A stretch of DNA of 64,000 bases from a virus. The stretch lies in IMG/VR virus record IMGVR_UViG_3300033146_001059, positions 1 through 64,000 of that record. One strand, written 5' to 3'. The notes under the pieces were generated by a model. That model had not been told where the DNA came from. It saw only the letters and a list, made by a program, of their open reading frames with translations, and searched no databases. A program made the position numbers and the translations under genes. This document shows, one piece after another, positions 1,938 to 54,630 of this stretch. The first letter of the stretch is position 1; every line of letters begins with the position of its first letter.

Positions 1938-2993
1938 TTATGTTATCGCACCTGTGGCATCTACCCAGTTGCCTCCATTATACCATATAGGCTTAGAGAT
2001 AGTTGTATCGAAATAGAATTGACCAGCTGTTAAGTTACTGGTAGGTCTATTTGCAGTTGTACCATTATATTGAACATATTCTTTAGTAACAAGTGCTTTT
2101 GACGCACTTCCTTCTGCCTGTAAATCAGCTAATACTGCTTCTGGTGCTTTAACAAGTCCAGTACTATAAATTTCTAGTCCATTTTTACGTTCTATAGGTG
2201 TACCATTATAGTTAACTGGTCCTATACCAAACTCAACTATGGCACCAGATACTCCAGTGTTACACTTACCAAATGCCTGATTAAACTTAACATTAGCAAC
2301 TGTATTGACACCTATGGCAGTAGAGGCTGCACCTGCTGAATGAGAGAATTGACCTAACGCTAGTGAAGCTAACCCTATCGCCCTAGCAGCTATACCCCAC
2401 GCAAATGAAATGTGTCCTGCCGCTGTTGTATGATTACCTAATGCAAATGAAACGTGTCCTGAAGCAAGATTTTTAGATCCTGCAGCAAAAGAATCATTAC
2501 CCAATGCGCCCAGAGTTGTAGGGTAAGGGGGTGCCTGTTCCTGGTTAGGTGGTTTTTCAGGTGTTGGTGGAGGTGGATTTGCACCTACTGACAGATCTGT
2601 TGCGCCATCACCTATACCCCCGTAATTTGCACTTGGCCTACCGACATATCTCCAACCACTCTTTCCGTTTTTAGTAACTTTCTCCAAACCAGTGCCACTC
2701 CCGACACCAAAAGACTCCCAATCAGATGCTTCTGTCACATCTGGGTCGTTAGTTGGGTCGTTTATAAGTTTATAGTATCCTGCAGTGAGAGCATCATTCC
2801 CATCTGAATTTTGATTATACACCAACATCCCAACTCTACGTCTGGGCCTGGGTATATTTAAAATATCTGTTAATTGTGCCCACGTAGAAAAACCACCAAT
2901 TCCCCACCTAGGATCCGAGACACCATAAGTATCTAATGAATCCGTAGGGGCGAAAAATCCTGTTACTTGTACACTTCCCGGTATCTTAGCCAT
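1938..2993 (-). CDS. Tail fibre with YadA-head-like repeats
   Basis: 351 residues. Residues 1-65 (starting MAKIPGSVQVTGFFAPTD) are nearly identical to the N-terminus of the neighbouring fibre at 3008-4237, so this is a shared virion-anchoring domain. Residues about 165-245 contain 14-residue repeats of the xALGxxxxAxGxxS type, as in YadA/Hep_Hag trimeric adhesin heads, predicting a trimeric left-handed beta-roll. The C-terminal part (KPIWYNGGNWVDATG) is of a kind common at fibre tips. Role inferred: trimeric receptor-binding fibre. Confidence 0.75.
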   Translation of the reverse strand: MAKIPGSVQVTGFFAPTDSLDTYGVSDPRWGIGGFSTWAQLTDILNIPRPRRRVGMLVYNQNSDGNDALTAGYYKLINDPTNDPDVTEASDWESFGVGSGTGLEKVTKNGKSGWRYVGRPSANYGGIGDGATDLSVGANPPPPTPEKPPNQEQAPPYPTTLGALGNDSFAAGSKNLASGHVSFALGNHTTAAGHISFAWGIAARAIGLASLALGQFSHSAGAASTAIGVNTVANVKFNQAFGKCNTGVSGAIVEFGIGPVNYNGTPIERKNGLEIYSTGLVKAPEAVLADLQAEGSASKALVTKEYVQYNGTTANRPTSNLTAGQFYFDTTISKPIWYNGGNWVDATGAIT

Positions 2994-3007: not shown

Positions 3008-4237
3008 TTATGTTAGTACTATTGTTAAAGCTCCGTTTATAACATTCGTAGTTCTATAACACATAAGGTTAATAGATATTGAATGAGCATTTGTCAATGC
3101 AACTGTTATAGGTGCCTCCATTGCCACTGGTAACTGTGTAAGTTCATCCTTAAATACAGTAGGTTGTGCTTCTGAGTCAACTACACATATCCATTTATAG
3201 GTCCCCACTGCTGCACCAAATACGTAACTTCCAGCTGACCCACTTTTAAGTGTATTGGCCAATATCTTGATTTGAGGCTCTAATATTGCCGCAGATGTAT
3301 GATTACCATAATAAAGTCTATTCATCCATTTTATACTATCTGATTTAGACCCTATTGCACCTCCAGCCGGTTTGTCGGCATTAAATGTCCATGTTTCTGT
3401 AGCGACAGTTGCATGTGTAAATGTTGACCCAGTATCAGCTGTAACTATACCTGAAGTACCTGTAGTAGGGAAAGATGCTCCTGCAAATCCCGCAGCTCCT
3501 GTTATAGTCATATTTATTGGGGCAGCACCGTTACTGTCAGTAGTCCAACTTAAAGATGCATTTGCTAAGGTAACTGTTGCCCCAACTTCTACGTTCACCC
3601 CTGGATTAACAGATAAACCTGCTAATGTAGGTGCTAGATATGGAGAAAGTAAATCTTCAATAATGTCAGTTATAGGAGTATGTGCGTCATATGTTGTACC
3701 AGAAGAAATACCACCAACTGAAATAGTAGATGTTACGGCTCTGTTAATTACAACAACCTCTAACCACGCAGTAGATAATCCACCTGGGTTTATTGCTGCT
3801 ATATCCATTGGAGGACCGTCAACACTGTTTGCAGGTACTGACGTATGATCTCTTATTGTTAAGAATGTTCTATTCGACTGAGTAACTATATCACCAGCAA
3901 TATAATCAATTCCAGATGCCCATACTTGATGAAGACTTCCACCACTACCACCCCCTGTTGCAAGCGAGGCCCAGTTTACATTAGTAGTAACATCCCCCAC
4001 AGGGTTACTTATTAACTGATATATACCATTATTAACATCTGCTGCATCAATATTTTGATTGTAAACCAGCATCCCAAGTCTACGTCTTCCCGCAGGTATT
4101 GAAAGTATCTCTGCCCACTGAGGCCACGTTGAGTAACCACCTATACCCCATCTTGGGTCTGATACGCCAAACGTATCCTTATCATCTGTAGGTGCGAAAA
4201 AGCCCGTCACCTGTACACTTCCTGGTATTTTAGCCAT
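3008..4237 (-). CDS. Tail fibre, mosaic of two neighbours
   Basis: 409 residues. The first ~65 residues match the N-terminus of the fibre at 1938-2993. The last ~240 residues (from DIIEDLLSPYLAPTL onward) match the C-terminal half of the protein at 4263-5429, sharing an LSxxPGVxxEVG start, SDSIKWMNRLYYGN and KWICVVDSEAQP. The protein therefore joins an anchor from one neighbour to the tip of the other. A His/aromatic linker (residues ~100-165) lies between. Role inferred: receptor-binding appendage. Confidence 0.75.
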   Translation of the reverse strand: MAKIPGSVQVTGFFAPTDDKDTFGVSDPRWGIGGYSTWPQWAEILSIPAGRRRLGMLVYNQNIDAADVNNGIYQLISNPVGDVTTNVNWASLATGGGSGGSLHQVWASGIDYIAGDIVTQSNRTFLTIRDHTSVPANSVDGPPMDIAAINPGGLSTAWLEVVVINRAVTSTISVGGISSGTTYDAHTPITDIIEDLLSPYLAPTLAGLSVNPGVNVEVGATVTLANASLSWTTDSNGAAPINMTITGAAGFAGASFPTTGTSGIVTADTGSTFTHATVATETWTFNADKPAGGAIGSKSDSIKWMNRLYYGNHTSAAILEPQIKILANTLKSGSAGSYVFGAAVGTYKWICVVDSEAQPTVFKDELTQLPVAMEAPITVALTNAHSISINLMCYRTTNVINGALTIVLT

Positions 4238-50056: not shown

Positions 50057-50530
50057 ATGAAAAAACTACTGGTGTTAATTATATTATTACACACTTTAGG
50101 GAGTTGCACTAAAGTAGAGTATATAAAAGATGAACGCCCTTTAAAAGAATATGAATATGAAGAAAAAGATGTTTCAACTACATATTCTCCATATGCCTAT
50201 CTAAAAGTATTAAAGGTTGAAAAAAATTATAAATATATAAAAATAAGTGTAAAATGTTCTAACCTTCTTTCTTCTTATATACATATAAGAGTATCGCAAC
50301 TATACACAGAAACAGGTGAAGTTTTTTATATGTATAATAATATAATGTATTATCCTAATGTTAGACCTGGTATGACTTTTAATATTCGTCAAAGTAATAA
50401 TGCATTAGATGAATTTATACTCACACTAGATTATGTATACAATTCTTTTGAAGAAATTAATATAAACATATCTCAAAAAAGGGGGATTTATTCATATAGA
50501 ACCAGTTCTGCATTAATAAATAGTATTTAA
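50057..50530 (+). CDS. Phage-encoded lipoprotein
   Basis: 157 residues from ATG 50057 (MKKLLVLIILLHTLGSC), chosen over 50039 because it begins a standard lipoprotein signal: basic N-terminus, hydrophobic core and lipobox LGSC with Cys 17. The mature part is Tyr-rich and beta-rich (VSTTYSPYAYLKVLKV). It should be lipidated and sent to the periplasm or outer membrane. Phage lipoproteins often block superinfection; that role is inference. The tmRNA begins within 30 bases of its stop. Confidence 0.65.
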   Translation: MKKLLVLIILLHTLGSCTKVEYIKDERPLKEYEYEEKDVSTTYSPYAYLKVLKVEKNYKYIKISVKCSNLLSSYIHIRVSQLYTETGEVFYMYNNIMYYPNVRPGMTFNIRQSNNALDEFILTLDYVYNSFEEININISQKRGIYSYRTSSALINSI

Positions 50531-50554
50531 AATTTAATATATCGTTTGAGTTCA

Positions 50555-50798
50555 ATTTGAACTGTATCAAACACGCGGGTTCGATTCCCGCTACCTCCAC
50601 TAATAATTTAAAATCATGGGGGTAACCAGGTATCGACTTGGTACGAAGTAGAAGTAGACGAGATGTATTGAGGTGAATCCGACAATAAACGGAAAGAAAA
50701 CAGCAAAAGTAATCAACTTTGTAGATGACACTAGAGTGTTAGCTGCGGCTTAATCAGCCTATGATTGCGCGTTAGGTGAGAGCCCTAACGTTCTTGAT
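50555..50798 (+). ncRNA. ssrA: Circularly permuted tmRNA
   Basis: The acceptor piece comes first: P2 3' strand GTATCAA (50564-50570), T-arm GCGGG-TTCGATT-CCCGC (50575-50591), acceptor strand TACCTCC (50592-50598) and discriminator A. After a ~19-base spacer comes the coding piece: GGGGGTA (50618-50624), a perfect partner of TACCTCC allowing one G-U, then CCAGGTATCGAC as in tmRNA 5' ends, and TTGGTAC (50638-50644) pairing with the P2 strand. The resume codon is GCA at 50703; the tag is AKVINFVDDTRVLAAA, with TAA at 50751. CCA is not encoded. It would rescue stalled ribosomes with host SmpB. Confidence 0.85.
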
Positions 50799-50803
50799 TT
50801 TAA

Positions 50804-50833
50804 AGGCTCACCCTATGTGGTGGGTCTTTTTTT
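50804..50833 (+). terminator. Terminator of the tmRNA gene
   Basis: AGGCTCACC (50804-50812) pairs with GGTGGGTCT (50819-50827), 9 bp with G-U pairs, followed by TTTTTTT. It lies ~50 bases after the tag stop and defines the 3' end of the precursor. Confidence 0.75.
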
Positions 50834-50865
50834 ATTTTAAATTAAACCATATAAATTATATAGTT

Positions 50866-53649: not shown

Positions 53650-54630
53650 ATGGATATTAAAGAACTTGAGGTATTTAACTTTACTAATAATGAATATAAG
53701 GAGTTTGAGAATAATGGTAATACGTACTTATTGAATCAGCACCCTTATTTAGACATTGTACTAACTGACCACTGTAATCAAAATTGTAGTTTTTGTATAG
53801 CTGATTTGATTCATCATAAATTAAATGCAGATTTAATCATCTTTAAAAAAAAAGTTGAATTTGCTATAAATAACATGAATATTGATGAGGTTTTATTACT
53901 TGGAGGAGAACCTACTGTTAGTAATGTTCTTATTCCTATTATAAAATACCTTAAAACCTTACCTCTTAAAAAGATAATCATGACCACAAACGGTATAAGA
54001 TTAGCGAGAGATGAAAAGTATCGAGAAAAAGTATTTTCTAGTGGATTAACACATGTTAATATTTCATTTATGAATATTGAACCTGTTAAACAAGGCGAAA
54101 TTACTGATAATGTATTACCATTAACATTATATGACCTTGCATTAATATATGAAACAGCCAAAAAGAATAAAGTTACTATAAGAATAAATAATAATATTTT
54201 TATAGATAATAATGATACTGTTAATGCTATGCTTAATTTTTATAATACAGTTAAACCTTATTGTGATCAAGTTAAATTTAGCCCTTTATTTGCTGTTGAT
54301 AATTTTAGCGTTGTTAATGTTAAAACAAATTGGGTTAAAGAACATATATTAACTGATGGGTATGTTGATGCTTTATTTACTGCCTTTGAATCAACTATGC
54401 GATCTAAAGTGTTAATTTTAGAAAATCCAATGCAATTTGGTTTCGTAAAAAATACCTTAATACCTTTAAAAATACCTATCATTATGAATTGGAATTTTGG
54501 GAAGTATACAGGTATGATGGATAAAGTTGTTAAAGAAAAGAAGATTAATAATATTAAATTACTTCCTAATAATGAGCTGTCTTTGTCTTGGAACAGAGAA
54601 GACGAGAAGTATTTTATAAAAACTGATTGA
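53650..54630 (+). CDS. Radical SAM enzyme
   Basis: 326 residues. The CX3CX2C cluster motif is at C42, C46 and C49 (DHCNQNCSFC), followed by LLLGGEPT (85-89), the SAM-amino binding motif, and a MTTNGIRL strand. This is a standard N-terminal radical SAM barrel (MoaA-like in order). The C-terminus has no second Cys cluster, so no SPASM domain is evident. It lies directly before a secreted Cys-rich mini-protein, a plausible substrate. Other possibilities are nucleotide or tRNA modification. Confidence 0.85.
   Translation: MDIKELEVFNFTNNEYKEFENNGNTYLLNQHPYLDIVLTDHCNQNCSFCIADLIHHKLNADLIIFKKKVEFAINNMNIDEVLLLGGEPTVSNVLIPIIKYLKTLPLKKIIMTTNGIRLARDEKYREKVFSSGLTHVNISFMNIEPVKQGEITDNVLPLTLYDLALIYETAKKNKVTIRINNNIFIDNNDTVNAMLNFYNTVKPYCDQVKFSPLFAVDNFSVVNVKTNWVKEHILTDGYVDALFTAFESTMRSKVLILENPMQFGFVKNTLIPLKIPIIMNWNFGKYTGMMDKVVKEKKINNIKLLPNNELSLSWNREDEKYFIKTD

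Follow-up and report, generated by a model that had tools for sequence, protein, structure and literature searches.

Does a crAss-like phage carry a genuine two-piece tmRNA when the bacteria of its presumed host phylum use the one-piece form, and if so, how would it work and where did it come from? The locus lies on the plus strand of the window, by which we mean the whole 64,000 nucleotides analysed, out of the 66,189 bases of a viral record that is a single metagenomic contig. An earlier note, written from the letters of the DNA, had claimed a permuted tmRNA here. An Rfam search bore this out: positions 50541-50753 (+) match RF04321 (tmRNA_permuted) from end to end (model positions 1-213) with 66.3 bits and E 1.4e-10, the gathering score of the family being 47 bits. 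RF04321 was the sole Rfam family above threshold in the whole 64 kb; Rfam found no glutamine riboswitch in the window, and none of the alpha, beta and cyanobacterial lineage models (RF01849, RF01850 and RF01851) reached its gathering threshold there. The tmRNA-specific finder ARAGORN, a check proposed by the note, independently called a permuted tmRNA (tmRNA*) at 50509-50844. The 5' end of the upstream-lying piece varies with the source: 50555 in the note, 50541 in Rfam and 50509 in ARAGORN. In the gene, the 3' part of the RNA lies upstream of the 5' part and the two are joined by helices; there is a tRNA-like domain with a T arm, a 7-bp acceptor and G3-U70 for AlaRS, and an internal tag frame with a stop, whose exact resume codon is a best reading. 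On these sequence features, the gene is confirmed as a real permuted tmRNA.

The upstream-lying piece (50541-50599 (+), counted from the start of the RF04321 alignment) would become the 3' part of the mature tmRNA. It carries a P2 strand (TGTATCAA, 50563-50570), the T arm GCGGG-TTCGATT-CCCGC (50575-50591, aligned by Rfam, with the T stem formed by GCGGG 50575-50579 and CCCGC 50587-50591 and covarying in relatives), the 3' acceptor strand TACCTCC (50592-50598) and the discriminator A at 50599. An 18-nt intervening segment (50600-50617) is expected to be removed. The downstream-lying piece begins with the 5' acceptor strand GGGGGTA (50618-50624), which pairs with TACCTCC over 7 bp including G3-U70; a G-U pair at position 3 is an alanine identity element. 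The positions of CCA read CTA in the window gene, which means that CCA has to be added once the RNA is cut. The second P2 strand (TTGGTACG, 50638-50645) pairs with 50563-50570. The acceptor of 7 bp and the T stem of 5 bp stand as the note had described them, and P2 is present but has 8 bp rather than 7. A possible PK1 pseudoknot was seen by eye at 50666-50693 (TATTG 50666-50670 with CAATA 50683-50687, and TCCG 50678-50681 with CGGA 50690-50693). Fold prediction places an 8-bp hairpin 3' of the tag (50769-50791) and a predicted intrinsic terminator at 50802-50834, consisting of an 11-bp hairpin (50802-50829) and a T run (fold z -2.8; 0 of 200 shuffles were as stable). The loop side GGTGAG of the first hairpin and CTCACC of the terminator could form a further pseudoknot, a candidate also found by eye. 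All of these features are on the plus strand.

The tag frame of the window ends in LAAA before the stop at 50753. The best reading, by comparison with relatives, is a 16-residue tag (AKVINFVDDTRVLAAA) that would start at the resume codon GCA 50703 and close with TAA (50703-50753), as the note had proposed. ARAGORN starts the tag at GGA 50691 (20 residues), and AAC 50715 would give 12 residues; the last 12 residues are common to all readings. GCA 50703 is favoured because the frame AKVINFVDDTRVLAAA can be aligned with the tag GKVIQMNNAPVRLAA of the prophage described below; comparison with the prophage tag and the relatives gave no such support to GGA 50691. AAC 50715 stands in the context TAATC, as in other tmRNAs, and is a possible resume codon. 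The resume context of the window is AAACA, unlike the TAAYT or TAAAT typical of the relatives. Tags of the relatives share the motif N-[VF]-V-x-[DY]-T. In two independent pairs of them, 8 synonymous and 2 nonsynonymous changes were counted, the expected synonymous share being 22% (binomial p 1.5e-4). This synonymous excess argues that the frame is translated in the relatives and indicates that their tag is under purifying selection. For the window, the prophage tag and more distant relatives are the basis for inferring the frame, selection having been measured in the relatives. The ARAGORN tag for one IMG/VR record, G003 (VSYQSG...), was rejected as wrong, the conserved frame GNVNNIVDYTHVA being present there.

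The note had also called the phage crAss-like. Matches to the Pfam families Crass_capsid (PF23898, 88.4 bits) and crAss_MUZ (PF25731, 94.6 bits) agree with this and place the phage, by its capsid and muzzle families, in the Crassvirales; its portal and terminase share 20-35% identity with those of crAss-like records. It probably infects the phylum Bacteroidota. No near-identical DNA was found among phage records. Two adjacent genes of the window (1938-2993 and 3008-4237) start with near-identical protein sequence (MAKIPGSVQVTGFFAPTD...), apparently a duplication, and the block of genes that follows the tmRNA encodes a radical SAM protein (53650-54630).

At least eight more Crassvirales genomes have a permuted tmRNA. 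Public Suoliviridae records cr273_1, cr130_1, cr124_1, cr7_1, cr131_1 and cr10_1 bear a tmRNA feature ('transfer-messenger RNA') with its form unstated, and ARAGORN reads all six as permuted. RF04321 exceeds its cut-off in cr130_1, cr124_1, cr7_1 and cr10_1, and cr273_1 falls just below it (46.2 bits). A Bohxovirus record without a tmRNA feature scores 70.6 bits, and three more IMG/VR records carry the same permuted type. To the note, a permuted tmRNA in a crAss-like phage was undescribed; we came across no publication that treats the tmRNA of crAss-like phages, in literature covered without most subscription journals, but the window is not the sole case. In several relatives the tmRNA is directly bordered by tRNA genes, where the terminator stands in the window, and tRNA-processing enzymes could therefore make the ends there. 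By eye, the removed segment differs among relatives: it contains a tRNA-like sequence in cr130_1 (L012, about 1064-1160) and a long inverted repeat (GTCAATACACA/TGTGTATTGAC) in the G291 prophage (L164, about 1618-1715). A further IMG/VR phage (G053, 153.6 kb; L147 5372-5718) has a permuted tmRNA with the acceptor of the window and the tag GKNNNFSVNFGPVAQTAAPKAMMAAA; no crAss capsid or portal was detected in it, and a tRNA nucleotidyltransferase gene is present. In several Suoliviridae and in MT835539 (L154, L155, L157-L161), the portal genes have many in-frame TAG codons, which makes recoding of TAG probable; the window gives no such sign, and its ORFs read with standard stops. A T-arm match in Cellulophaga phage phi38:1 was discarded as no tmRNA was called, and distant blastn hits with the window tmRNA were mostly T-arm matches, uninformative alone.

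Pairing across the swap was analysed in an alignment of nine distinct Crassvirales permuted genes, whose short sequences were put together from their two parts, in some cases by script and in others visually; the alignment depends on this extraction. Five acceptor sequences occur among the nine genes (GGGGGTA, GGGGCTG, GGGCGTG, GGGCATG and GGGCCAT) and each pairs perfectly with its upstream partner. In the acceptor and T stems, 108 of 108 cells are standard pairs, and changes on both sides were seen at 7 of the 12 pairs, including 4 of the 7 acceptor pairs. The covariation score was 0.606, against at most 0.125 when the partners were slid. G3-U70 and the discriminator A are invariant, and the covarying acceptor pairs connect the two swapped pieces. 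The locus might still be a decaying remnant, an assembly artefact or a chance likeness, given that the window is one metagenomic contig and that its Rfam score is far under that of proteobacterial-type genes (66 vs 84-141 bits). The E-value of the match, the intact helices, the open tag and the good terminator speak against this, and the arrangement recurs in genomes that were assembled separately, among them a bacterial contig of 1.6 Mb. This explanation is largely refuted, and we give it next to no weight.

The note had given one-piece tmRNA as the form of Bacteroidota hosts, and the genomes agree: RF00023 was above cut-off in 114 of 118 Bacteroidota genomes, and a permuted tmRNA exceeded its cut-off in one of 395 (G291). 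The permuted gene of G291 (C1:985944-986341) is inside a 1.61-Mb contig, with a crAss capsid gene 69 kb away (290 bits), a tyrosine integrase at 997091-998419 and, on either side of a 91-kb element, a direct repeat of 50 bp that corresponds to the 3' half of tRNA-Met (907589 and 998607). Judged by these features, G291:C1:907589-998656 (L172-L176) is a crAss-like prophage of 91 kb, complete by appearance, inserted in a tRNA-Met gene. The tmRNA of the G291 host itself is one-piece (160 bits) with the tag GEDNYALAA. The prophage also carries a 5143-residue ORF. A second, weak tmRNA match in another Bacteroidota genome, G160 (49.3 bits), was set aside; it had no ARAGORN call, and no crAss capsid was found.

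Our main reading, to which we assign a probability of roughly 0.85, is that this is a permuted ssrA gene of a crAss-like phage whose transcript host tRNA enzymes would cleave to give a two-piece tmRNA that, with host SmpB, rescues ribosomes. The sequence itself shows the gene order and the pairing; that the gene is expressed, and that its RNA is cut, charged, used with SmpB and active in tagging, is inferred from what is known of tmRNAs. A single transcript would end at the terminator near 50830; host RNase P would cut it at 50617/50618, and 3' trimming after A50599 would precede CCA addition. The acceptor stem and P2 would hold the two pieces together, and AlaRS would charge the RNA via G3-U70. 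Host SmpB would then load it onto stalled ribosomes during infection, and the ribosome would resume on the internal frame, add the tag ending in VLAAA (NFVDDTRVLAAA) and be released. An SmpB gene was found in both Bacteroidota genomes searched, and in none of 19 phage records (the window and 18 others, some of them fragments). The RNA could instead be a decoy, its tRNA-like domain taking SmpB or AlaRS away from host tmRNA and blocking trans-translation, as the tRNA-like-domain-only tmRNA of mycobacteriophage DS6A inhibits tmRNA (PMC11915505, PMC4131195); tags of some relatives end in HVA, NVA or CVA and not in a host-like LAA. A decoy needs no tag, yet a full frame with resume and stop is kept, and the purifying selection on the tag in relatives weakens this explanation further, so that we consider it improbable.

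One-piece tmRNA was above cut-off in 8 of 50 IMG/VR records (G021, G023, G027, G031, G036, G038, G039 and G050), of which 49 had been picked by portal similarity and one (G003) by its tag pattern; G003 was the sole record of the 50 with a permuted tmRNA above cut-off, and absences mean little here because many of the records are fragments. Some crAss-like records gave weak RF04321 matches (20-31 bits), which turned out to be one-piece tmRNAs or to sit among tRNA genes. A one-piece crAss-like tmRNA was also seen by eye in G033 (about 158 kb; L108 1558-2159), with the acceptor GGGGGTA/TACCTCC and the tag DNNNVIRHSFRTVAYRAAA; it had no ARAGORN call, and it seems to hold a 68-residue ORF without a Pfam match between the tag and the 3' domain. 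The portal scan of the collection rests on alignment A2, A1 having proved too diverse. In the portal tree, the window joins phages bearing one-piece tmRNAs with 100/100 support; the permuted Suoliviridae and the prophage stand separately, and a minimum of two changes is required to account for the permuted genes. Long branches occur in this tree, and the nearest kin of the window are fragments in which the tmRNA state is not visible. For these reasons, and because genes may have been transferred, independent permutation is offered as a hypothesis. We tentatively propose, at slightly less than even odds, that tmRNA became permuted within Crassvirales or the Bacteroidota that they infect, perhaps on two occasions, and independently of the three bacterial lineages already known for it.

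Most Crassvirales genes, permuted and one-piece, have a resume region of the form TAAYT/TAAAT-GGC-AA, and in most relatives this region resembles the one-piece tmRNAs of crAss-like phages and of two Bacteroidota hosts. With a profile of the host tmRNA 5' domain, proteobacterial permuted genes scored as well as crAss-like ones. Acquisition of the gene by the phage from Proteobacteria or Cyanobacteria concerns the origin and is compatible with the main reading. Permuted tmRNA is otherwise common only in these two groups, phages with a true proteobacterial-type permuted tmRNA exist (L001, 141 bits; L146, RF01850, 110.8 bits), and the likely resume codon of the window is GCA, as in genes of the L001/L146 type. 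None of the alpha, beta and cyanobacterial models reached threshold on the window or on the other Crassvirales permuted genes (the best weak match was to the beta model, 37.2 of 84 bits, in cr273_1), and the TAAYT/TAAAT-GGC-AA resume region and missing CCA of the Crassvirales permuted genes differ from the GCA-AACGA and CCA of L001 and L148. We regard such an acquisition as unlikely.

These genes place two-piece tmRNA in a very abundant group of gut viruses and in a phylum where nearly all bacteria have the one-piece form. In the prophage case, the same cell has a host tmRNA in one piece and a phage tmRNA in two, each with its own tag, so the use and timing of the phage RNA are directly testable. 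The coexistence of both gene orders in one phage order may show how permutation evolves; if the origin does lie in Crassvirales or their hosts, they would be a lineage with both orders, in which the change could be dated.

Phage two-piece tmRNA is already known; what is new is the lineage, the tag and the possible independent origin. The window gene resembles the RF04321 systems of Alphaproteobacteria, Betaproteobacteria and Cyanobacteria in gene order, acceptor, T arm, P2, G3-U70 and tag frame, but it has no encoded CCA and reaches the threshold of none of the lineage models, and Bacteroidota bacteria use the one-piece form. In a phage survey, 53 of 133 unique phage tmRNAs were two-piece, and 50 of those 53 were marine or aquatic (PMC9004378). 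The Methylophilales phage Melnitz and other marine phages encode a permuted tmRNA as the window does (PMC9004378); however, they infect Proteobacteria or cyanobacteria and their tmRNA is typical of the lineage, with an adjacent glutamine riboswitch in Melnitz. The DS6A RNA is likewise a phage tmRNA-derived RNA, but without a tag frame. One-piece crAss-like tmRNAs belong to kin of the window by portal and are alike in their resume codons, which are mostly GG-N, and in tags that end in AA; they differ in having the standard order (RF00023). The Suoliviridae tmRNAs are permuted like that of the window, belong to the same phage order and have a similar tag motif, whereas their acceptors (GGGCGTG, GGGGCTG and GGGCCAT), mostly longer intervening segments, tRNA neighbours in place of a terminator and tags often ending in VA set them apart.
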